From positions 1 through 38,445 of the forward strand of contig JAFGJS010000082.1 in assembly GCA_016928995.1 (NCBI GenBank): a DNA stretch of 38,445 nt, read 5' to 3'. This document shows, piece by piece, positions 1,879 through 28,380 of this stretch. Origin of the DNA: Candidatus Sumerlaeota bacterium. Its GTDB lineage: Bacteria > Sumerlaeota > Sumerlaeia > JAFGJS01. Under the pieces are notes generated by a model, which was not told the origin of the DNA, did not search any database, and worked only from the letters and a program-made list of their open reading frames with translations. Within the stretch, counting starts at the first letter, position 1; each line of letters begins with the position of its first letter. The position numbers were made by a program, and so were the translations under genes.

Positions 1879-2694
1879 CTAGCCGCGGTCGCCCTCGCAG
1901 CAGGCAAATTTAAGTCGCCGCATGAATTGGTCGCTCAGTTCCGCCAGCCGTTTCTGGTTCGCTTTGTCGATGCGACGTGTGACATAGCTTATTGCAATAA
2001 TTACAATGATGCAGCAGGTATATGCCCCGATCAAACAAAGCAATTGTCCGCCCAAAACGCGAAAGGCATTAGCAATCCCGGACTTCAAGGCGTTTCCGTC
2101 GATGAAATTTTGCAGCGCCAACAATCCGCCCCACAGGCCGACTTTGTAAAAGATCAAGATAACAATAAGGGCAAAGATAAATCCAAACGCATATAAAAAA
2201 AGCGTCCAGCTTAAAGTAGGTGAAAGAGCCGGGAGTAAAAAGGAAGCCTCGTTTGACAACGATGAAATGACAACGCCAAACAGCAGACAAATTGGTTCGA
2301 TCGTCTGAAATCGAACCCATTCGCAGAATCCACTTAAAAACTCATCGCCATCCATTTTGGACAACAGCAATTGCTGAAAAACTTCATGCCGGCTGAAATA
2401 CTGCATGCGGCGATACATCTGGATATAAGTGAAAAGATAAATCATGGGGGCTCCGAAGAGCAGAATTAGAGAAAATCCGAATGGAATTGCCCATCTCAGA
2501 TTCAGGAGGATACAGAATGCGCCAGTCGCTGCAATCCAAAGCGCACGTTTCAGCAGGAACAACGCGTAATTACGCCGCGCCTTTAATCGAAAGAGCAACT
2601 TGAGCAGCGGATCGTCGCTTAGTCTTGCATAATGAAAATTCCCGCCGCATAGCAGGCTCATAACGCGCAAATACGCGCGCAGCAGGAGCGTCAC
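1879..2694 (-). CDS. Unknown multi-pass membrane protein coupled to a sigma-54 regulator
   Basis: A 271-residue protein not recognised as a known family. Hydrophobic segments appear near residues 48-66, 70-90, 135-160, 163-188 and 210-240, separated by basic loops; the C-terminus is a basic tail. There are cysteines in the last membrane segment (TCC) and near the C-terminus (CC), with no clear metal motif. It starts with GTG at 2694-2692, overlapping the TGA of the response regulator as GTGA, so translation is very likely coupled and the two probably act together. It may be the target or an accessory of that regulator; no histidine kinase domain can be seen in it. Base composition is somewhat more AT-rich than neighbouring genes. 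Confidence 0.7.
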   Translation of the reverse strand: MTLLLRAYLRVMSLLCGGNFHYARLSDDPLLKLLFRLKARRNYALFLLKRALWIAATGAFCILLNLRWAIPFGFSLILLFGAPMIYLFTYIQMYRRMQYFSRHEVFQQLLLSKMDGDEFLSGFCEWVRFQTIEPICLLFGVVISSLSNEASFLLPALSPTLSWTLFLYAFGFIFALIVILIFYKVGLWGGLLALQNFIDGNALKSGIANAFRVLGGQLLCLIGAYTCCIIVIIAISYVTRRIDKANQKRLAELSDQFMRRLKFACCEGDRG

Positions 2695-4094
2695 TTGTGC
2701 ACCTTCCAGCTGGGGTGCTTGAGGCCGAATTTACGCACGCGGGAGTTCATGCGGTCCACGGAAATATCGAGCAGGGCGGCAGCGTTCTTCTGATTCCAGT
2801 CGCACTTCTCCAGCGCGGCCACAACGAGCTGCCGTTCCACGTCCTCGAGCGAGATGCCGTCGTCAGGGATGCGCAGCGCGATGTCCTGCAGTACGGCGGG
2901 CTTGCCGATGCCGCACTCCTGCACGTCCGAAGCGGCGATCGTGTCGCCGCGTGCGCGAATCGTTAACCGTTCCATGATGTTGCGCAGCTCGCGGATGTTC
3001 CCCGGCCAGTCGTAGCCGTTGAGCAGCGCCATCGCGTCGTCCGTGATGCGCGTGGGGCCGCGTTTGTATTTGTCGCCGAAAAGCCACAGGTAATACTCGA
3101 CCAGCGGCTTGATGTCGTCCGGCCGTTCGCGCAAGGGCGGAATGGTGATCGGCAGCACGTTGATCCGGTAATAGAGGTCTTCGCGGAATTCGCGCCGCCC
3201 GGCCATCTCCTTCAGATCGCGATTCGTGGCGCAGATGATGCGGCAGTTCACTTCGATCTCGCGCATGCCGCCCAGCCGCATGATACGGCGGTTCTCAATG
3301 GCCTTGAGCAGCGCGCTCTGGCAATTCAGCGAGAGTTCCGAAATCTCATCGAGGAACAACGTTCCGCCCGAGGCAAGCTCGAACTTTCCCTTGCGCATCG
3401 TTCGCGCGTCGGTGAAGGCGCCGCGCTCATGGCCGAACAGCTCGCTCTGCAACAGGTTGTCGTCGGGCAGCGCCGCGCAGTTCACGTCGATGAACGGCCC
3501 GCCGGAATGCAGGCTGGCGCCGTGGATCGCGCGCGTCACGAGCTCCTTGCCCACGCCGGTTTCGCCGCGCACCAGGATGATCCCGTCGCTTTGCGCCAGC
3601 ACGCCGATCTCGCGTTTGATCTCGCGCATTGCATCGCTCTCGCCGATCAGGTCGAGAAACTCCGTGCTGCGGCGGAGCTCATCCTTCAACATCCGGTTTT
3701 CCGCGGCCAGACGCTGCTGTTCCAGCACCTTCTTCAGCCGCACGACGATCTCGCTCTTTTCGCTCTCTTTCGTGATGTAGTCCGCCGCGCCGCCGCGCAT
3801 CGACTCCACCGCCGTCTCCACGTCATTGATCGAGGTCAGCACGACGATCGGCGTCGAGGGATCGACGCCCTCGCGTTCGCCGGACTTGATGATGCGAATC
3901 AACTCCACTCCGCTGATTCCAGGCATGCGGATGTCGGTCACGATCAGGTCGAAATCATGGCTCAAGAGCTTGCTGAGCGCCTTGTCGCCCGAAGCGGCGA
4001 GTTCCACCTCGAACTGCTCCATTGCCAGGTTGCGCTGCAAGCGCTTGGCGAACTGCGCGTCGTCTTCAACTAATAGGATTTGCGGTTTCAGCAT
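2691..4094 (-). CDS. NtrC-type sigma-54-dependent response regulator
   Basis: A 467-residue activator with the three NtrC domains. The receiver (1-120) has the acidic pair Asp11-Asp12, phospho-acceptor Asp54 in VTDIRMPG, and a conserved Thr/Lys switch (VLTS, TKE). The AAA+ sigma-54 interaction domain (about 145-380) has Walker A GETGVGKE (177-184), Walker B GGTLFLDE (243-250) and the sigma-54 contact loop read as GAFTDA (225-230) instead of GAFTGA. The C-terminal Fis-type helix-turn-helix lies near 433-460 (NQKNAAALLDIS). It should receive a phosphate from a sensor kinase, oligomerise, and open sigma-54 promoters, but no kinase is encoded in the window. It is the first gene of a two-gene unit with the membrane protein downstream. 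Confidence 0.93.
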   Translation of the reverse strand: MLKPQILLVEDDAQFAKRLQRNLAMEQFEVELAASGDKALSKLLSHDFDLIVTDIRMPGISGVELIRIIKSGEREGVDPSTPIVVLTSINDVETAVESMRGGAADYITKESEKSEIVVRLKKVLEQQRLAAENRMLKDELRRSTEFLDLIGESDAMREIKREIGVLAQSDGIILVRGETGVGKELVTRAIHGASLHSGGPFIDVNCAALPDDNLLQSELFGHERGAFTDARTMRKGKFELASGGTLFLDEISELSLNCQSALLKAIENRRIMRLGGMREIEVNCRIICATNRDLKEMAGRREFREDLYYRINVLPITIPPLRERPDDIKPLVEYYLWLFGDKYKRGPTRITDDAMALLNGYDWPGNIRELRNIMERLTIRARGDTIAASDVQECGIGKPAVLQDIALRIPDDGISLEDVERQLVVAALEKCDWNQKNAAALLDISVDRMNSRVRKFGLKHPSWKVHK

Positions 4095-18049: not shown

Positions 18050-18808
18050 TTAAATAATGTGATCCCGAATCCCATTTTCAGGATTTGGACTAATCTCAAC
18101 CATCCTTAATAATTTTGGCCATTCAAGCACAAGGTATTCGTATTCAGCAATAATGTTAATCTTAAATTCATCATAGCATATCACATTTTTTATATTATAC
18201 TTCTTAAGCTGCTCATCGAACTTTCTTTTTCCGGATTCATTAATGGTATCTTGAATCGTTCTTAAAAACTCCGGATTATTCAGAGTGTCCTTCATCTCGA
18301 ATAAGTGTAACATCGCATGATCATATGCTGTCAGCCCTTCCGAATCTTTTTTATGTATAGAAGCTCCATATTTTTTCAAAAGCGCCACTTTTTTTATAGG
18401 TTCAATTGTGCCATTGACTGCAATCATTAAAGCAGTTATGCCTCGCGAAGTTTGCTTATCAACATTCGCCCCAAACTCCAATAACGCTTTCATTTGTGCC
18501 GCATAACCACTATAAGCACATTCCAACAATGGCGTCCAGCCGATGCCAGCTCGTATTGGAAATATTTCTGGATCATCAATCTCAATGGTTGTTCCCGCTT
18601 CAGGATCAGCGCTGTGTTCAAGAAGTAGCTTTATAATAGCCGCGCCATCTTCCTTCCACATCGGTGACATAAAACAATAATGCAATGCCGTGCGGCCATA
18701 TAAATCTTTATCATTGATTCCGCCATATTTCGTTGTAGCTCTACGAACGTCCTCAACTGTCGAGTCAAAGCTCATACATAATTCCATAAGCTTTGTATAT
18801 TTAGCCAT
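18050..18808 (-). CDS. Ankyrin-repeat protein in AT-rich patch
   Basis: About 252 residues from MAKYTKLMELC. At least three ankyrin repeats are visible: DLYGRTALHYCF with the following helix pair ending LLLEHSADPEAG; GWTPLLECAYSGYAAQMKALLEFGANVD; and RGITALMIAVNG to LLKKYGASIHKKD, then EGLTAYDHAM. Ankyrin stacks bind partner proteins; the partner is unknown. The C-terminal 70 residues are not repeat-like. The sequence is strongly AT-rich compared with flanking genes, suggesting acquisition. The start is uncertain: AGGA lies 11 nt before the ATG at 18808, and another ATG lies at 18832. Single ankyrin genes like this are sometimes immunity or effector partners, which cannot be shown here. Confidence 0.8.
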   Translation of the reverse strand: MAKYTKLMELCMSFDSTVEDVRRATTKYGGINDKDLYGRTALHYCFMSPMWKEDGAAIIKLLLEHSADPEAGTTIEIDDPEIFPIRAGIGWTPLLECAYSGYAAQMKALLEFGANVDKQTSRGITALMIAVNGTIEPIKKVALLKKYGASIHKKDSEGLTAYDHAMLHLFEMKDTLNNPEFLRTIQDTINESGKRKFDEQLKKYNIKNVICYDEFKINIIAEYEYLVLEWPKLLRMVEISPNPENGIRDHII

Positions 18809-18979
18809 AATTATAAATATCCTGACTAGCATTCACCAGATATAGAATTTCGGAAATTACGTGTACATCCAACTTTATTCTCCTTTCCTCGATTGGATGC
18901 CAATTTCAGCGCCATTCTTATGTGTCCCTGGCACTATACGGAATTATTTCGGAAATGCCCACAATACTTCGTCAATATA

Positions 18980-19519
18980 TCATTGAGACAACCTGATTAT
19001 GTCGCCTTTGCTATAACTTCCATTTGTTGAATCATACATAAAAGACGATAAATGGATATATCTTTCCATATCACTCATTTCATTCGTTTCTTTAGCAATC
19101 TTCAAGTCGATATCATAATCACCGTCTGGACCAGGACTCCATAGCATCCATTTTTTTCCAAAATTATAATAACAAAAGGTGCAGCCCTTTGCTGCAAATG
19201 GATCGCGAAAAAGTCGATTCTCTAACAATCCATTAGTTCGGCCATCAATATTACCTATATATTGTAATGAATTTAAATCAATCAATAAAAAGGAAGGTAG
19301 ATCGCCTTGTTTATTGACTGAGTCTGGGCCAAATCCAAAACCGGGCATCTTTTTATTAACGGAGAAATATCTTTCTATAATAATTGCAGTCTCTCGCATA
19401 TCTAGTTTAACATTTACATGCTTTTTACCAACTCCATAATCACTTGCTGGACCAATGCAACCGATGATTATAGCTAATAAAAATACAATGAGTGATATAT
19501 ACACTTTATCTGAGCGCAT
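18980..19519 (-). CDS. Putative lipoprotein with pseudopilin-like C-terminus
   Basis: A 179-residue protein. The start at 19519 has GGAGGAG 5 nt upstream. The N-terminus MRSDKVYISLIVFLLAIIIGC gives a lipobox (IIGC, Cys21), so it should be lipid-anchored. The body has an alpha segment with a KKMPGFG region, then RDPFAAKGCTFCYYNFG and SPGPDGDYDID. That DPF...SPGPDG ending resembles GspG-type pseudopilin C-termini, where such acids bind calcium, but the pilin N-terminal methylation helix is replaced by a lipobox. The function is unknown. It is AT-rich, like the ankyrin gene 171 bp downstream, and may have been acquired with it. Confidence 0.75.
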   Translation of the reverse strand: MRSDKVYISLIVFLLAIIIGCIGPASDYGVGKKHVNVKLDMRETAIIIERYFSVNKKMPGFGFGPDSVNKQGDLPSFLLIDLNSLQYIGNIDGRTNGLLENRLFRDPFAAKGCTFCYYNFGKKWMLWSPGPDGDYDIDLKIAKETNEMSDMERYIHLSSFMYDSTNGSYSKGDIIRLSQ

Positions 19520-19865
19520 ATTACTCCTCCATAGAATGGCTATTCCGTATTCTGGAAACACACAACACACGGCATGCCTAAAACATTCTCCTTGTTGTTG
19601 ATCATCTTGGCATGTAATGGCTGGCTTTGGGCTTGTTTTCTGCTTTTTTTAAAACCAAGTGCTGCAACATGACTTTCAGAATATCATTCTCGCCAGCCAG
19701 TTGCACGCAGCAAATGCTTCAAGTCCAGCCTCGGGATTACTTGTACATCCTATAAAATTACGTAAAAAATCAAGCGTCATTTCACTCTCGACTTTCCGGC
19801 TTCTTCGACGCATACTCCCGGTGGATTTATACATTTAATCTATTGAATCGGATTCTGTCGTAACG
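19520..19865. other. Divergent intergenic region upstream of sigma-54 activator
   Basis: This 346-bp region lies between the lipoprotein (minus) and the sigma-54 activator (plus). It carries the second copy of the shared 31-bp segment (19766-19796), which translated on the minus strand gives SEMTLDF and a short open stretch ending near 19678. No ribosome site supports it as a gene. A sigma-54 promoter (GG-N10-GC) was not found for either flank. Confidence 0.4.
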
Positions 19866-21410
19866 ATGTCTAATGATTTTCTGGCCATTTCACCTCAACC
19901 GGAATGCGTCTGCCTGGCTGCGCGGATCTATCCGGATTTCCCGAACCTGCGCCTGACGGGACGCAAGGCGATCCTGGATGCGTTGCGCGATTGGTCCGAG
20001 CGTGGCAAGCCCGGCCGCGCTGCGATCCTGCTGGATTCCGTGGCGGAGTCAGCTGAAGCCCGGAGCCTGCTGCGGCGCTTGGCCAAGCAGGACTTTCAAA
20101 TCATCTGGGTGGCCGGACCGGAATGCGCTTCGGTGCAGGAGGCCTGCCGGGACGCATCCAACGTGCAGCTGCACACCGGCGATACGCTGTTCGCCGCCTT
20201 CAACGCGGCCTTTCGCGCATCAGCCAAAATGAAGCCGTTGATGCGGCAAGCGGCCAACCGCGAGACCGACCTGCTGGATTTCATCAATTATAAAATCTCC
20301 CTCGCCATGATGCGGAGCATGGACGCCGAACCGGTCGCTGAAGCCGTGCGCGAATTGCGCCGCTGCAAAAGCAGAAGGTTTCTGCTCGAAAACCTCAGCG
20401 AGGAAGACCGCAAGTCGCTGGAGCATTTCCGCCGCGAGGATTTCCCGTACATCGCCGGCCACACACCGCCGTTGAATAAAATGAAACGCGACATCCTTCG
20501 CGTCGCGCCGTCCGAGCTGAGCGTGCTGATCCTCGGCGAAACCGGCACGGGCAAGGAAAACGCGGCGTTCTATCTGCACGAATTCAGCGCGCGGCGCGGC
20601 GGACCGTTCATCGCGCTCAACTGCGCCGGGCTGGATGAGCATTTCCTGCGCTCGGAGCTCTTCGGTCATAAAAAGGGGGCGTTCACCGGCGCGTTGCAGG
20701 ACCAGCGCGGACTCGTGACCGAGGCCGAAGGGGGCACGCTGTTCCTGGATGAAATCGGCGACATGCCGCCGTCGGTGCAGGCCGACCTGCTCCGCTTTCT
20801 GCAAACCCGGCGCTATCGTCCGCTGGGCGATACGCGCGAAATCTCCGCCGATATCCGCATCATCGCCGCCACGCAGCCCAATCTGCACATCAAAAAACGC
20901 AACGGGGAATTCCGCGAAGACCTGTATTACCGCATCGCTGAATTCGAGCTGACAACGCCGCCGTTGCGCGAAATCCCCGTGGATATTCATCGCGTGGCGC
21001 GGCACATCATCTACCATCAATGGGAGCGCGCTGACGCGGAAGACTCGCCGCGCTTTCAGGATGCGCTGGATTACTTCAGCGCGAATCGGGAACTCATGGA
21101 GCGCTACGCCTGGCCGGGCAATGTGCGCGAGCTAGCCGCCGTGGTGCGGCGCAAAATCGAATTGAATGACGAATGTCTGGCCACGCTCGGTGCTCAGCCC
21201 GAAGCGCCGCCGCTGCCGTTGCAGCTGATCCCGGCCATCGAACGCGCGTCCGACATTCGCACGTTGCGTGAAGTCCAACGTTCCTACGCCGAACACGCCG
21301 CGGCGCAACAGGAGCGGCTGGGATTGACGCAGCAGGAGCTCGCGCGGCGGCTGAAGATTCACGTCGCCACGCTGAACAAACTGCTGCGCGGCAAGGACAA
21401 GCCGCGATGA
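19866..21410 (+). CDS. Atypical sigma-54 activator with novel N-domain and XRE-like C-terminus
   Basis: A 514-residue bacterial enhancer-binding protein. The AAA+ core (about 195-430) is complete: Walker A GETGTGKE (224-231), canonical GAFTGA (271-276), Walker B TLFLDE (291-296), and the FREDLYYRIAEF and WPGNVREL motifs. Residues 1-190 are not a recognisable receiver, GAF, PAS or V4R domain; strands such as RAAILLDSV and QIIWVAG alternate with helices, suggesting an alpha/beta sensor. Instead of a Fis helix-turn-helix the C-terminus reads GLTQQELARRLKIHVATLNKLL, which looks XRE/Cro-like. The terminal ATGA overlap with the next gene implies the two are co-translated. The ATG at 19866 has only a weak ribosome site. 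Confidence 0.85.
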   Translation: MSNDFLAISPQPECVCLAARIYPDFPNLRLTGRKAILDALRDWSERGKPGRAAILLDSVAESAEARSLLRRLAKQDFQIIWVAGPECASVQEACRDASNVQLHTGDTLFAAFNAAFRASAKMKPLMRQAANRETDLLDFINYKISLAMMRSMDAEPVAEAVRELRRCKSRRFLLENLSEEDRKSLEHFRREDFPYIAGHTPPLNKMKRDILRVAPSELSVLILGETGTGKENAAFYLHEFSARRGGPFIALNCAGLDEHFLRSELFGHKKGAFTGALQDQRGLVTEAEGGTLFLDEIGDMPPSVQADLLRFLQTRRYRPLGDTREISADIRIIAATQPNLHIKKRNGEFREDLYYRIAEFELTTPPLREIPVDIHRVARHIIYHQWERADAEDSPRFQDALDYFSANRELMERYAWPGNVRELAAVVRRKIELNDECLATLGAQPEAPPLPLQLIPAIERASDIRTLREVQRSYAEHAAAQQERLGLTQQELARRLKIHVATLNKLLRGKDKPR

Positions 21411-23191
21411 CTTCGCCGCCCGTGACACCATCGCCCGACACGCAAAGCGGCTTCAACTGGCGCATGGCCGCGTTGTTCGCCGTTGCGGGCGCCCTGTGGC
21501 GCATCGCCTTCATCTACACCGGCTGCTCGATCATGAATGGAGACCAGGCCATCTTCGGCATTCAGGCGCAGCACATCTGGCTCGGAAAATTTCCGTTGTA
21601 CTTCACCGGCCAGCATTACCTCTTCCCGGTCGAGTCTTATTTTGTCGCCTTGATGCGGCTGGTCACGGTGCAGATCACTCCACTGACGTTGAAGCTCGTG
21701 GCAATACTTGAAATGCTGGTTTACGTACTGACGCTCTACGGTCTGCTGAACACATTGCTCGGTTCGAAGCGTCTGGCCACAACCGCCGCGCTGCTGGCGC
21801 TGCTGGCCCCGGCGTATTTCACACAGATGAGCGTGGCGCTGAATTTCCTGCCGACCTTGATCCTGGGCCAATTGATGCTCTGGCTGGCGGCGCTCACAGT
21901 GAAAGAGGAAGATGAGCAAAAACTCCGCCGGAAACTGGCGGCGCTGGCGGCGCTGGCGGGTTTCGCCTGGTTTCAGTATCCCTTTGTCGCGCCATACATC
22001 GCGTCCACTTTCGCCATCCTGCTGTTGTTCGACGCCGACGGACAACGACGCCTGATCCGACACATCGCTGGCGAGCGTCCGCTACTGCAAGGCGCCGCCG
22101 CCCTGCCCTATCTCGTTATTTTCTTTTTCATGCTGCCGTTCACCTGGAATGACAAATTTATGGCATGGCGCAATCTCTTTCAAATCGCCCTGCTCTGCTG
22201 GATTCCACTCGGCGCCCTTGCGCTACTTTGGGATGAATGGCTCGCGCTAAAAAAACCGGGGCGCCTGCCGCTTCCAGCGGCGCGATTACTTGTCTATTGC
22301 AGCATCGGCATCATGCCGCAGCTGATTTATATCTTTCTCCGAGACGACGTCTGGTACGCAGGAAAACTCGCGCTGGGACCGAATGTCGAATCGAGTTTTT
22401 ATGGCCTTTTGTTATCCGATATCCCCATCATCGCCGGCCCGTTGCGCATCGGCCTGTTTCTGCAGAATCCATTGCCGCCGCCGGTCAATCTGCTTCTGCT
22501 GATCGCGTTGTTCGCTCTGATCGGCATGAGTTTGATAGCCACATTGCGGCGCAAGCCGGACGAATCCGGCGCGCTCAACCGGCGCGGCGTTTTGCTGATC
22601 TTAATCCATGCCGCGGTCTGCATCGGCTTGAAATTGGTATCTGAAAACTCAAACGCGATCTATCCGCGCCACCTGTTGACGCTTTATACGGCGCTGTTCG
22701 CGCTGCTGGCCATCATGATCCAGGAATTCCGGTTGCTTTCGCGTCATGCGGGCGCAACGGCGCTGGCGATCATGATCACCGTCCATGCTTTTTTCACCTT
22801 CATCCCTCGCGACGAGAAAATCCTGCCCATCAGCATGTGGCCGGTCCAGGTTCACATCGCCGCGCAAGCCATGCGCGCAGAAAATCTGCACGCCGCCTTT
22901 TGCCCCTATTACGATTTCGCATATCCCTTGCTGTTCGCCCTGGGACCGGGCTACGACATCGCGCCGAGAAGGCATCATGACCGTTTCCCTGAACTCACAC
23001 AGAAGCTGCAATCGCACAAGGATTTCGCGATTTTCCTGCGACCCTATGCCACGCAAAGTTATCCACGCGACGCAATGCTCACTTACGACGAAAAAAAATT
23101 GGGCGAATGGAACATGCTCTATAACTTCCGGTATGACGGCCGTCCGATCACTTTCGCACAGTTGCATGAGTTCATGCCGGGTCTGCCATAA
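21407..23191 (+). CDS. GT-C-like polytopic membrane glycosyltransferase or related protein
   Basis: A 594-residue protein with about 11-12 membrane helices. The first external loop reads MNGDQAIFGIQAQHIWLG, matching the early acidic loop of GT-C fold glycosyltransferases (Asp46), which use polyprenyl-phosphate sugars at the outer face of the inner membrane. A soluble C-terminal part of about 110 residues (IPRDEKILP onward) follows the last helices. Acceptor and donor are unknown. Its ATG is inside the activator stop (ATGA), so expression is tied to that regulator. It converges with the amidohydrolase gene, 27 bp apart, with no clear terminator between. Confidence 0.72.
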   Translation: MTSPPVTPSPDTQSGFNWRMAALFAVAGALWRIAFIYTGCSIMNGDQAIFGIQAQHIWLGKFPLYFTGQHYLFPVESYFVALMRLVTVQITPLTLKLVAILEMLVYVLTLYGLLNTLLGSKRLATTAALLALLAPAYFTQMSVALNFLPTLILGQLMLWLAALTVKEEDEQKLRRKLAALAALAGFAWFQYPFVAPYIASTFAILLLFDADGQRRLIRHIAGERPLLQGAAALPYLVIFFFMLPFTWNDKFMAWRNLFQIALLCWIPLGALALLWDEWLALKKPGRLPLPAARLLVYCSIGIMPQLIYIFLRDDVWYAGKLALGPNVESSFYGLLLSDIPIIAGPLRIGLFLQNPLPPPVNLLLLIALFALIGMSLIATLRRKPDESGALNRRGVLLILIHAAVCIGLKLVSENSNAIYPRHLLTLYTALFALLAIMIQEFRLLSRHAGATALAIMITVHAFFTFIPRDEKILPISMWPVQVHIAAQAMRAENLHAAFCPYYDFAYPLLFALGPGYDIAPRRHHDRFPELTQKLQSHKDFAIFLRPYATQSYPRDAMLTYDEKKLGEWNMLYNFRYDGRPITFAQLHEFMPGLP

Positions 23192-23218: not shown

Positions 23219-24442
23219 CTAAAATAAAGCATTGCATGCTATAGAGCGACCGGCAGCAAAGACGGCTAGGCACTGACGTTGCGCGTCCTCGATCCATTCC
23301 ATCAGGTTCGCATACGGCCAGCGCCAGATGGAAAAATCGGCCCGGCAGCCGGAATGGATGCGGCCCTTATCCGGAAAATTCAGCGCCGCCGCAGGACTTT
23401 CCGTGATCATCGCCAGCAATTCTTCCGAGCTCAGATCAGGATGCAGCTCATGCGTCAGTTGCAGCTCGCGCGTCAGATCGAGCGATTCATTGCTGGCCAG
23501 GCTGTCCGTGCCGATGCAGACATTGACGCCGGCCTGACGATAGGCCGTCATCGGCCAGGGCGCGCGATTGAAGTAACGATGCGTGCCCGGACAAAACACG
23601 ACGGAAAGGCCGTTGCGCCCCAGCAGTACCGCATCACCGGGCTCCGGGCAATTGGCGTGAACAATCAGCGGTTTGAAATCGAGCAATCCGTGCGCGTCCA
23701 GATGCTGCAACGGACTACAGCCTGGAACGGACCAATCCGAAGGCAATGAGGCGAAACGCCGCTTCAGTTCATAAAACGGTCCGCCGCCCTTGAGGAAGAA
23801 TTCATTCTCTTCCAGCGTTTCTGAAACATGGATCGAAAGCGGCCAGCGATACTCGAGCGCTCGCTCAGCCGCAGAACGAAAAAGATCGACGTGGATGCTG
23901 TATGGCGCATGCGGCGCGAAACCGGCCTTATTAAGCGGATAGCCGCGCATCCGCCGCGCCAGAGCCTCTTCCGCCATCTGCGCCGGCCAATCCTCCGGAC
24001 GCGATTCGATCAATTCGAACAGATAATACGCATCCAAACCGGATTGCAGCAACGCCTCCTGCGTAATGTCGAGCGACAGGTTGTCCACCAGCGTCGTCGT
24101 GCCGCTACGTATGATCTGCTCAATCGCGCCGGGCAGGGCAGCTCTCAGCGTTTCCTCGCTCAATTCGCTTTTCAGCCGGACAATCTGAAACAGCCAATCG
24201 GTGAATGCGGCAGGTTGCAGCAGGCCGTGCATGGCGGAATATTCCAGATGACAATGCGCGTTAATGAAGCCCGGCAGGATGGCGCAATCCGGCCACTCCT
24301 GCAGGTTCTCGCACCCTTCGAACACGCCGCGCGGACGCACGTCCGTGATCACGCCATCCCGCGCTTCCACGACGCCGTTCTCCAGCCATTCGCCGCCGGG
24401 CAACAGCACACGGCGCGCCGTGAATCGAGCCGTCGCACTCAT
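23219..24442 (-). CDS. Amidohydrolase-superfamily deaminase, possibly aminodeoxyfutalosine deaminase
   Basis: A 407-residue metal-dependent hydrolase of the ATZ/TRZ-SsnA-MqnX group. Metal and catalytic residues are visible: His63 and His65 in GFINAHCHLEYS, His205 and Glu208 in SIHVSE, His262 in IVHAN, and Asp313 in GTDSLASNESLDL. CPGTHRYFNR (284-293) resembles the CPRSN/H segment of aminodeoxyfutalosine deaminases (MqnX) of futalosine-type menaquinone synthesis. The exact substrate cannot be set from sequence alone; guanine- or adenosine-type deamination is also possible. The start at 24442 overlaps the phosphatase stop as ATGA, so the two are translationally coupled. No other menaquinone gene is in the window. 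Confidence 0.85.
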   Translation of the reverse strand: MSATARFTARRVLLPGGEWLENGVVEARDGVITDVRPRGVFEGCENLQEWPDCAILPGFINAHCHLEYSAMHGLLQPAAFTDWLFQIVRLKSELSEETLRAALPGAIEQIIRSGTTTLVDNLSLDITQEALLQSGLDAYYLFELIESRPEDWPAQMAEEALARRMRGYPLNKAGFAPHAPYSIHVDLFRSAAERALEYRWPLSIHVSETLEENEFFLKGGGPFYELKRRFASLPSDWSVPGCSPLQHLDAHGLLDFKPLIVHANCPEPGDAVLLGRNGLSVVFCPGTHRYFNRAPWPMTAYRQAGVNVCIGTDSLASNESLDLTRELQLTHELHPDLSSEELLAMITESPAAALNFPDKGRIHSGCRADFSIWRWPYANLMEWIEDAQRQCLAVFAAGRSIACNALF

Positions 24443-25208: not shown

Positions 25209-26120
25209 CTACATTGAATGAGCACTATAATCGAACAGAGAAGGCTGCAAAACGGCATCCTCTTGCTTGATTGATTCAGAGTCAGGCGGGAAGTTCATTA
25301 TTAGGGCCTCCAGCATAGAATTCCGATTATCCTCTTTGGCCCCCACGTGATAAAAATGTTCTTTAGTAACAATATTGAATTGCGACCAGAGTGAAACCAA
25401 GTATTCGTTTTTCCTATATCTGTTACTGTGCCATGTTGACATGATAAACCGCGCCTTAGTTTCTGAAAGACAACGATATAAACGCCCTTCATCAACAACG
25501 TCCCAAGAATTAAAATAGTCAACATGCCTTCCAAGATATGGTGGATCACAGTATATGAAATCAGTCTCGGAAGCGCAGGCTATCGTTTCTTCAAAATCTT
25601 GGTTCTTGAATGTCCAATTGTGAAATTGCAATAGTTCTGAAAAATGAGCGATTTGATTGACAATTTTTGTTATATAGGCGCCGGCAAATCTATTTGGTTT
25701 TCTGCAAAATGGAACATTGAATCCGCCCTTTTTGTTGAAACGAATCATACCATTGAAACAGCTCCGGGAGAGGAATAAAAAATCAAGTGGATTGCCCTTA
25801 TGATTGAAACGGTCTCGCACAGCATAATAATGCGCTTCGCCTTTTTCCCGAAGAAGCCGGCCTTCATGTTCCAGAAAGGCTCTTGCGGATTCAGCCGTGA
25901 TGGTTTGAGTCTTTAATGCGTCATAAAACGCGATGATATGGGGATTAAGGTCGGCAAAAAGTGCTTCTGAAGGACGGGCATTCATCCCAACAACGCCAGA
26001 GCCCATAAAGGGTTCAATCCAAAGTCCACTTTGTGGAATGGATACATTTGCCAGAATCAAAGGTACAATTTTAGTCTTGATGCCTTGGCACTTAATCGGG
26101 GGAACAAGAATTCTAGCCAT
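25209..26120 (-). CDS. D12-class N6-adenine DNA methyltransferase (second in R-M cassette)
   Basis: A 303-residue Dam-like enzyme that methylates adenine N6 with SAM. Motif I is EPFMGSG (36-42) and the catalytic motif IV is DPPY (192-195), with the recognition domain between, the alpha-class order. The usual N-terminal WxGGK is altered to KCQGIKTK. QPSLF near the C-terminus (292-296) resembles a beta sliding-clamp-binding peptide. AAAGGGAG sits 7 nt before the ATG. It is the third gene of the cassette, 105 bp after the endonuclease gene. It is visibly more AT-rich than host genes. Recognition sequence unknown. Confidence 0.9.
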   Translation of the reverse strand: MARILVPPIKCQGIKTKIVPLILANVSIPQSGLWIEPFMGSGVVGMNARPSEALFADLNPHIIAFYDALKTQTITAESARAFLEHEGRLLREKGEAHYYAVRDRFNHKGNPLDFLFLSRSCFNGMIRFNKKGGFNVPFCRKPNRFAGAYITKIVNQIAHFSELLQFHNWTFKNQDFEETIACASETDFIYCDPPYLGRHVDYFNSWDVVDEGRLYRCLSETKARFIMSTWHSNRYRKNEYLVSLWSQFNIVTKEHFYHVGAKEDNRNSMLEALIMNFPPDSESIKQEDAVLQPSLFDYSAHSM

Positions 26121-26202
26121 CTTGATTCTCCCTTTCGTTTCTATTTGTGCGGACGCATGGATTTGTACGGCTAACGCCTGGAAAACGCCTTTGACTCAGA
26201 GT

Positions 26203-26221
26203 GCCGTTGGATCGCATGTCA
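26203..26221. repeat. Direct repeat copy 2, between endonuclease and methyltransferase
   Basis: This is the second copy of the 19-bp repeat at 25083-25101. On the minus strand it opens a short frame beginning MRSNGTLSQ that echoes the phosphatase start MESNGSLIH and runs to about 26117, suggesting a displaced or decayed gene start. Confidence 0.6.
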
Positions 26222-26225
26222 GTGC

Positions 26226-27356
26226 CTATTCATCGCTTTCGGCGGCTTGACGAAGAGCCAAAAACGCTTCTTTGAGAGTTTGACTCACGGCTGAATCAGA
26301 CTCATTCAGGACAAGAGCCTGGTAAGCGTCCAAATAGTCAGTCCGGATGCGGTGAAACAGGTGCAGGAAATGCCTTAAAAACCCGATGCAATCAAGAATG
26401 GCGATTTCGGTTCCGCCGGTTTCGTCGTAAAACTTGTTCGCGTGTTCCACAACGTCAGGATCAATGGTATCGGTAGTCACGAAAAGATAATTGTTGATGC
26501 GCTTCGGTGCTCGGGCGATTTTCGTTACAGCGCAATCGATGTCATCAATGGTGACTCGCTTCATCTTCATTTCATACGCGGTAATGACAGCATCGTCTCC
26601 GACCAGACAGATTTCAACATCCCCAATGGAACCTGTTTGTAGATCAGCTGCGTTATGGGAGTTCAAGGGGAGAAGACTTTCGGCCAAGCGGTCTCCTGCT
26701 GCTTGATAAGCGGCAGCCACTATAAGTACGGGAAGCCGACTTGCATTCTTACATGCAAGATGCTGCTTGATGAGTTCTACGATTGCCTCTGACGACAGAG
26801 GCAAAGCGCCTTCGGCGTGTTTGAGAGATTCCAGCAAGGAAGCCATGCGTTTAAGCTTTTCGTCCCGCATCTGAAGAAGAACGCGAACGGACTCCACAAA
26901 TACAGTTTCAGCCATAATCCGTTTTTCAGCAACGTCCTCCAACAAGAGCAAGGTCTTCTTGTAGAGATCACGCGGCCGTCCGACCAAATCGCGAGCCGAC
27001 GTAAGGGCTTGATCGATATTCCGAAGCGTGGGCGTCAAGAAGGCCGTTGTTGGATTGCAGGGCAACCGATGTCTATTGATAAAATGCGTGATATATTGCT
27101 CGTCGTAGGTTCTACCCGAAAAACTTTCCTCACCACCGATTTCGGTGTATGGCTTTCGTGGGTCGACTTCCGGTCTGTGAATCTTTCCGAGCAGGCAGGA
27201 CATCAGCAATCGCACCCCGGCACGATTGCTCAAACAGCGGCAAACATAATCGACACGCTCTCGAATATCGTCGTCTTCAATCACAGTCTGTTCCAGCGTC
27301 GCCGCTGCGCACTGATAAATGTTTTCCAGAATCTGGTCAGGCGTTGGCTGCGTCAT
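26226..27356 (-). CDS. SacI-family-like type II restriction endonuclease
   Basis: A 376-residue protein flanked by two methyltransferase genes. A PD-(D/E)XK-like nuclease core is suggested by GDVEI (Asp246) followed by TAYEMK (Glu262-x-Lys264). The N-terminal VDPRKPY...SFSGRTYDE block and the C-terminal EIAILDCIGFLRHFL block resemble the SacI endonuclease family as I remember it; this needs a profile search. It should cut unmethylated target DNA in the cytoplasm. The ATG at 27356 overlaps the upstream methyltransferase stop (ATGA), which fixes the start and couples nuclease to protective enzyme; an 18-codon extension is unlikely. No separate controller (C) gene is seen. Composition is more AT-rich than host genes. 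Confidence 0.75.
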   Translation of the reverse strand: MTQPTPDQILENIYQCAAATLEQTVIEDDDIRERVDYVCRCLSNRAGVRLLMSCLLGKIHRPEVDPRKPYTEIGGEESFSGRTYDEQYITHFINRHRLPCNPTTAFLTPTLRNIDQALTSARDLVGRPRDLYKKTLLLLEDVAEKRIMAETVFVESVRVLLQMRDEKLKRMASLLESLKHAEGALPLSSEAIVELIKQHLACKNASRLPVLIVAAAYQAAGDRLAESLLPLNSHNAADLQTGSIGDVEICLVGDDAVITAYEMKMKRVTIDDIDCAVTKIARAPKRINNYLFVTTDTIDPDVVEHANKFYDETGGTEIAILDCIGFLRHFLHLFHRIRTDYLDAYQALVLNESDSAVSQTLKEAFLALRQAAESDE

Positions 27357-28285
27357 AGATCGAAAAGACTCCCTTGATCCTTCACATTGCATGGGTCGTA
27401 ATTCGTCCAAAGCACTTCCTGCCGTGTGCCCTTCGTTGAATGAATCGTTCTATCGGCGCCCGTTGTCTTGAACCATCGCTTCTTGGGAAATAGTTTTTCC
27501 ATCAAAGGATGATCGTATCCAGACACCGCCACCTTGCCTTTGCATTCATTCAACGTTTGAGCCAGTTTCTTGTGTTCCGGCTCGTCCATTTCAAATCCAT
27601 ACGCGCTGGAATCACCTCTGGTCGCGTGGAGATATGGCGGGTCGCAATAGAACAATGTTTCAGGGCTGTCATAGAGGCGGATAACTTCAATCGCAGGTCG
27701 ATTTTCGATCTGTACACGGATCAGTCGTTGAGCAATCTCATCGAGGGCATCCACCCCGCCAAGCCATCTTGATACAACGCCCGACATCCCAGCCCGGCTT
27801 GTGTTCTTGCAATTGGCCCACCGCCCAAGTGATGCGGTTTGCGCAAGCCCCGTGCGTGTCTGGCGGGCTTTTATGTAGAAGCGCCTCGCCCTCTCGATCT
27901 CTGTGATTCCTTCTGTCTCGCCGTATATCGCCGTATAATATTCCTCGCGAGAGAACGGCGTCAGCGAGATTGAACGGATCAATTCCTCATGGTGCTCCCG
28001 AAGGACGCGAAAGAAATTGACTGCCTCCCCATCAATATCGTTGTAAGTCTCAACTGGGGATGGATCGCGATTTAGTAACACAGCCGCCGACCCTGCGAAA
28101 GGCTCGCAGTAGTGATGACAGGCAGGAAGTAATGGAAGCAGCCATTCCAGATGCGAAAATTTCCCGCCGTACCAGCCGAATACGATAAGCCGGTTGCGCC
28201 GACGGGGAATGTACGCTCCGTTTGCCCGTTCTGATCCTGCACCGTCATCAAGGTAAATCGGCGAAACGCCTTTACCGTTCTTCAT
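27353..28285 (-). CDS. D12-class N6-adenine DNA methyltransferase (first in R-M cassette)
   Basis: About 310 residues, with WYGGK (38-42), motif I EPFAGS (61-66) and catalytic DPPY (215-218) in alpha-class order. It ends in VKDQGSLFDL; QGSLF (304-308) again resembles a sliding-clamp-binding peptide. The start at 28285 is preferred because AAAGGA lies 7 nt upstream; an ATG 11 codons earlier (28318) has its GAAGG too close. It is the first gene of the cassette, so the protective enzyme is made before the nuclease. It differs greatly from the other methyltransferase of the cassette, so the two probably modify different strands or sites. Confidence 0.9.
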   Translation of the reverse strand: MKNGKGVSPIYLDDGAGSERANGAYIPRRRNRLIVFGWYGGKFSHLEWLLPLLPACHHYCEPFAGSAAVLLNRDPSPVETYNDIDGEAVNFFRVLREHHEELIRSISLTPFSREEYYTAIYGETEGITEIERARRFYIKARQTRTGLAQTASLGRWANCKNTSRAGMSGVVSRWLGGVDALDEIAQRLIRVQIENRPAIEVIRLYDSPETLFYCDPPYLHATRGDSSAYGFEMDEPEHKKLAQTLNECKGKVAVSGYDHPLMEKLFPKKRWFKTTGADRTIHSTKGTRQEVLWTNYDPCNVKDQGSLFDL

Positions 28286-28380
28286 CAATCCATCCTTTTC
28301 TTTTTGTCCATCCTTCACGATTGCCGTCTTTCAAGTGCCATCCGCGTCTAAATGAATGCGTAGAGAGATGTGTGCCAGCC

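Follow-up and report, generated by a model that had tools for sequence, protein, structure and literature searches.

What does a sigma-54 activator sense, and which gene does it switch on, when its N-domain belongs to no recognized family and its C-terminal end departs from the common pattern? The protein that raises these questions has 514 aa, comprises an N-domain, an AAA+ domain and a helix-turn-helix (HTH), and is encoded by the ORF at 19866-21410 (+) of the window, i.e., the whole stretch of 38,445 nucleotides that was analyzed. The first-pass annotation had called it a sigma-54 activator with an unrecognized N-domain, and both halves of that description were borne out: Sigma54_activat (PF00158) matched residues 197-362 (20454-20951 (+)) with an E-value of 6e-62 and about 208.7-211.4 bits, and neither Pfam nor NCBIfam gave a row covering residues 1-190 as a separate domain. 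The sequence of the AAA+ sigma-54 interaction domain includes the Walker A motif GETGTGKE (20535-20558 (+)) and an intact GAFTGA loop (20676-20693 (+)), the loop through which activators of this kind contact sigma-54 (PMC7175178). The equivalents of the loop in three relatives of the activator are GSFTGA, GSFTGA and GAYTGA. PF00158 matches occur at 23 places in the window's genome, this activator among them, and the sigma-54 DNA-binding domain has one match there. The window itself holds a second sigma-54 activator at 2691-4094 (-), with a receiver, an AAA+ domain and a Fis end, in which GAFTDA stands in place of the expected GAFTGA, so that its contact with sigma-54 may be altered.

The C-terminal helix-turn-helix

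A Fis-type (HTH_8) end is usual, if not universal, in sigma-54 enhancer-binding proteins. The window activator ends in GLTQQELARRLKIHVATLNKLL, and HTH_8 gave no row on its last 75 residues, as compared with 44.5, 46.8 and 57.8 bits on three activators of this genome that served as controls. HTH_3 did match these 75 residues, with 32.1 bits (cut-off 23) over positions 6-36 of 55 only (21312-21404 (+)), and only a few residues follow the matched part. A survey of the activator ends in the window's genome covered 20 loci of the 23 PF00158 places, the three weakest matches having been left out, and yielded 17 readable ends, of which 16 were Fis-like by eye (four of the 16 were also scored with HTH_8) and one, that of the window activator, was the exception. 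Motifs of the TQxELA kind recur in the relatives, as GNQTQQEIARRLGLS in L010, GALSQQDLARRLGIS in L011 and GDLTQAELASRLGIS in L152; over the three, HTH_3 gave 18.0 bits, 16.4 bits and no row, and HTH_8 gave 12.2, 13.8 and 14.0 bits (cut-off 22). The helix preceding the TQxELA motif is by eye still of the Fis pattern, and we therefore take the HTH to be a modified one and not an XRE domain that was transplanted. With the HTH_3 match confined to positions 6-36 of 55, the end of the window activator is best described as a TQxELA-type HTH motif, short of a complete XRE domain; of the earlier description of an XRE-like, non-Fis end, the departure from Fis stands.

The N-domain: a predicted DHH-like fold and its rivals

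Two AlphaFold2 models of the N-domain, from alignments of four sequences, had a pLDDT of 85.7 and a pTM of 0.82 (model 1), and of 81.9 and 0.78 (model 2, with the L152 protein leading). Both consist of five strand/helix units, which in the window activator form the core (residues 1-117, 19866-20216 (+)), and a helical tail (residues 120-190, 20223-20435 (+)) that leads to the AAA+ domain. The VIA-align top three were the same for both models, 6mtz, 8a8k (a PAP phosphatase) and 7bhi (RecJ-Cdc45), with 163-177 residues aligned: for model 1, Z was 12.0 over 177 residues with 6mtz, 10.9 over 177 with 8a8k and 9.9 over 173 with 7bhi, and for model 2 it was 9.6 over 167 with 8a8k, 9.3 over 164 with 6mtz and 8.5 over 163 with 7bhi, to which Cdc45 (6cc2) added 8.2 over 183. 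The best structural matches of both models are to the DHH superfamily (NrnA/PAP phosphatase, RecJ and Cdc45), of which Cdc45 is a non-catalytic member, at moderate Z (12.0 to 8.2) and about 10% identity; an NrnA-like query matched 30 PDB sequences, and 6mtz, an uncharacterized protein, is not one of them. Rival folds covered the core only, with VWA at Z 9.3 over 117-118 residues for model 1 and 4ycs at Z 8.2 over 101 for model 2. A viral structure library gave four matches at E 0.001, the three named ones being a phosphohydrolase, RecJ and NrnB, all of the DHH kind. Foldseek alone found nothing in the PDB at E 0.001 with the N-domain model, and its best 50 rows held 6mtz and one CMG-helicase chain, the rest being other folds, e.g., FtsZ, sugar isomerases and receivers.

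At the sequence level, a search of the PDB with the N-domain profile returned chance matches only (best E 0.33), hhalign of the N-domain against 20 NrnA-like (DHH) sequences gave a probability of 0.5% (P 0.13), PF01368 (DHH) had no row for the activator at E 1, and the DHH triplet was absent from the four aligned N-domains. Five residues, S9, P10, P12, A18 and A19, do not vary among the four members. After strand 1 the window N-domain reads S-P-Q-P-E-C-V-C-L-A-A, and by eye this stretch can be aligned with the NrnA-like protein of the same genome at its first DHH motif, H-E-R-P-D-G-D-S-L-G-S, other residues then standing in place of the metal ligands. The position of the DHH triplet, placed by eye after strand 4, is occupied by AGP, ARR, APR and SGN in the four members. 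With the motif absent and the profile comparison giving no support, the DHH assignment is one of predicted structure: the N-domain is predicted to fold like the DHH domain at the N-terminus of PAP phosphatase, RecJ and Cdc45, its catalytic residues having been lost. It differs from the superfamily in its fusion to an AAA+ activator, and in having neither detected sequence similarity nor the catalytic motif, the latter being the reason why the activator was not filed under the DHH phosphoesterases. Among the open-licence articles of PMC, no DHH domain in a sigma-54 activator was found. The activator regulatory domains tabulated in one review are the response-regulator, PRD, PAS, V4R, ACT and GAF domains (PMC7175178), to which a survey of Clostridiales activators adds further ones, the word DHH being absent from its main text (PMC6615313). 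A DHH-derived sensor, if true, would add the fold of a nucleotide enzyme to this repertoire.

A rather improbable alternative takes the N-domain for a pseudo-receiver that has diverged strongly, or for some other Rossmann-type domain with no relation to DHH, which would bind either a partner protein or a small ligand. Its five strand/helix units would also suit a receiver, receivers were among Foldseek's best 50 rows (RssB at rank 9 and HupR at rank 26) and are present, by eye, in most of the other activators looked at in this genome, and hhalign against the receivers of 10 of 17 activators gave 1.1% with a P of 0.048, the lowest of the three sets compared. Nevertheless, the helical tail is not covered by receivers, none was among the best 50 VIA-align rows for model 1 (absence from which, by the tool's own warning, is no proof against a fold), and PF00072 had no row for the activator at E 1, whereas the activator at 2694-4094 scored 89.6 bits on it. 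The lack of rows for PF00072 and HTH_8 also upheld the early impression of an unfamiliar sensor in residues 1-190 and of an end other than Fis.

It is far less probable still that the activator belongs to RtcR (CARF-AAA+-HTH) and has a diverged CARF domain. RtcR was indeed its best NCBIfam model (263 bits) and RtcR_PspF2 its best PADLOC model (282 bits), but both matches begin after residue 184, PADLOC gave no row for the four N-domains alone, and the same PADLOC model exceeded 400 bits on other activators, two of them from this genome, so that the match is unspecific. With ordinary activators scoring higher, the RtcR_PspF2 match was dropped as specific evidence. Moreover, hhalign against six CARF-type N-domains (seven loci were chosen, and six gave an ORF) returned 0.2% (P 0.29), when a control of the CARF set, half against half, returned 100%. 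A GTP stretch common to all six of the CARF-type N-domains is missing from the N-domain, PF06956 was not found in the window's genome, and there was no CARF chain among the best 50 VIA-align rows for model 1, with the same proviso as for receivers. As no CARF domain was recognized, the activator was not filed under RtcR.

ARPP-1 beside the activator in relatives, and a possible circuit

Three of the 40 phylum genomes carry the N-domain, and over 386 genomes its profile gave one further match only, a weak one in G338, which by our reading is a ThyX-like ORF and was dropped as a chance match. Two short conserved patterns, a scan that can miss distant members, led to four loci in 84,980 species genomes, three of them already known and the fourth, L152, from a MAG labelled Acidobacteria. 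Among the viral contigs scanned, the N-domain alignment confirmed no member; the ordinary activators that the full-length protein or its alignment retrieved there were matched mainly via the AAA+ domain and were rejected. The activator is a genuine, rare form within a known class of regulators. One carrier, G022, has in addition to its intact activator a second, degenerate copy of the N-domain (L012 / L153, G022:C279), which contains an internal TGA.

In both of the complete phylum relatives besides the window, L081 (in G022) and L082 (in G017), the gene upstream of and divergent to the activator is ARPP-1 (PF20208; 259.7 and 220.0 bits), in L082 with a HIRAN domain, and each is the only ARPP-1 found in its genome. 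Across the 40 phylum genomes, ARPP-1 occurred in three, the third carrier (G027) having no N-domain match, and the window's genome was among those in which the search did not find it. Divergent to the window activator, on its upstream side, lies a 196-aa ORF (18980-19570) with no family match, beside an ankyrin-repeat protein at 18050-18832 (-). Downstream of the L152 activator, and on its strand, are genes for a PAD_porph protein (of the arginine/agmatine deiminase type) and, before it, a protein with a metallo-beta-lactamase fold (L152:2378-4644), a pair that is a candidate for a different target set. Only 739 bases of contig lie upstream of that activator, and ARPP-1 was not found in the L152 genome, in a search in which the control genomes likewise gave none.

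Putative -24/-12 sites were scored with a matrix of our own, made after the general consensus. The intergenic region of L081 contains, at L081:9076-9091, a near-consensus site with a score of 29 of 30.5. It faces the ARPP-1 side, on which a 95-codon ORF comes ahead of ARPP-1; that score was reached in 4 of 5000 shuffles of the region, and by one other site in 610,632 strand-bases of sequence. The longest frame of the L081 activator would begin within the site, and a later start was assumed, since similarity to the other members begins about 120 bases further in. The best site of L082 scored 24, which 546 of 5000 shuffles reached, and the region upstream of the window activator (19571-19865) had no site above chance (best 23.5 of 30.5; 976 of 5000 shuffles). 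With these two at chance level, the promoter evidence stands on the L081 locus. When the four upstream regions were compared for shared binding sites, the yield was some scattered words and a single 9-mer, which resembles a ribosome-binding site and is present in both L081 and L082.

From these observations, a one-component activator may be envisaged that uses a dead DHH-like domain to sense a ligand of nucleotide type and, in the relatives, switches on ARPP-1 in the manner of RtcR; the case for it seems to us evenly balanced. The N-domain would be a DHH-derived domain turned ligand sensor. For such a domain, devoid of catalytic residues, the most plausible ligand would be a nucleotide-type molecule, be it pAp, a cyclic dinucleotide, a short RNA or some derivative of ADP-ribose. 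Until it binds, the N-domain would keep the AAA+ domain off; once released, the AAA+ ring would remodel the sigma-54 polymerase at -24/-12 promoters, the likely target in two relatives being the divergently transcribed ARPP-1 gene. A further proposal is more speculative, and we offer it tentatively: across the activator family, the dead DHH sensor would respond to an alarm signal of nucleotide type (the same candidates, with nanoRNA as the short RNA), and the gene switched on would be ARPP-1, in a conflict or repair role. If true, this would be an RtcR-like alarm circuit built on a different nucleotide-binding fold.

The parallel with RtcR, the activator of rtcBA, is that of another one-component sigma-54 activator with a Rossmann-like N-domain, one that represses the AAA+ domain, and of a gene oppositely oriented to its sigma-54 operon (PMC9650030), an arrangement resembling that of the activator and ARPP-1 in the two relatives. 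Here, however, no CARF domain was recognized, the HTH is of a different type and the neighboring gene is a different one. The proposed substrates of ARPP are ribose moieties that derive from ADP-ribose (PMC9503650), and an action on these would fit nucleotide-type sensing. The same paper describes ARPP neighborhoods with HIRAN and with WYL regulators, and the present loci likewise place ARPP-1 beside a regulator, with HIRAN in one of them; the regulator here, however, is a sigma-54 activator, and the terms sigma-54 and sigma54 are absent from the main text of that paper. A DHH-derived sensor, if true, would provide the poorly understood ARPP-1 with a dedicated regulator, and its inducing signal could be searched for by reporter.

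The overlapping membrane-protein gene

Directly downstream of the activator, a gene at 21407-23191 (+) encodes a polytopic membrane protein of 594 aa with 15 hydrophobic segments and no Pfam or NCBIfam match. GT-C glycosyltransferases have an acidic residue in the first outer loop, and Asp46, which follows the first hydrophobic segment, is invariant in the three aligned relatives of the membrane protein (3/3); a distant relative (E 2.1e-5) matches PMT with 25.3 bits (cut-off 22.7). A GT-C-like nature is plausible. The coupling of the two genes by a shared ATGA was seen again at 21407-21410, and from it a dedicated envelope-control unit had been proposed, in which the activator controls the co-transcribed glycosyltransferase-like gene. 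The overlap on the same strand speaks for such a unit, which we nonetheless regard as unlikely: four-base ORF overlaps occur at two more places in the window (2691-2694, with a GTG start, and 24439-24442), the region upstream of the pair has no -24/-12 site above chance, and the pair is not conserved, an outcome that the first-pass annotation had itself named as refuting its proposal. Matches to the membrane protein were found in 5 of the 40 phylum genomes, the window's own included, and among the other four carriers only G022 has the activator too, there on a different contig; G017 has no match. G022 and G017 are draft genomes, in each of which the activator's immediate neighbors are seen on its own contig, and in neither is the gene downstream of it the membrane-protein gene. 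For the membrane protein, the best reading is that of an operon neighbor of the activator that is specific to the lineage.

Two genes from the activator pair, D12-class adenine methyltransferase genes at 25212-26120 and 27356-28318 (-) flank a 394-aa ORF with no Pfam match; we take the layout of this cluster (25209-28318 (-)) to be that of a DpnII-like restriction-modification system.
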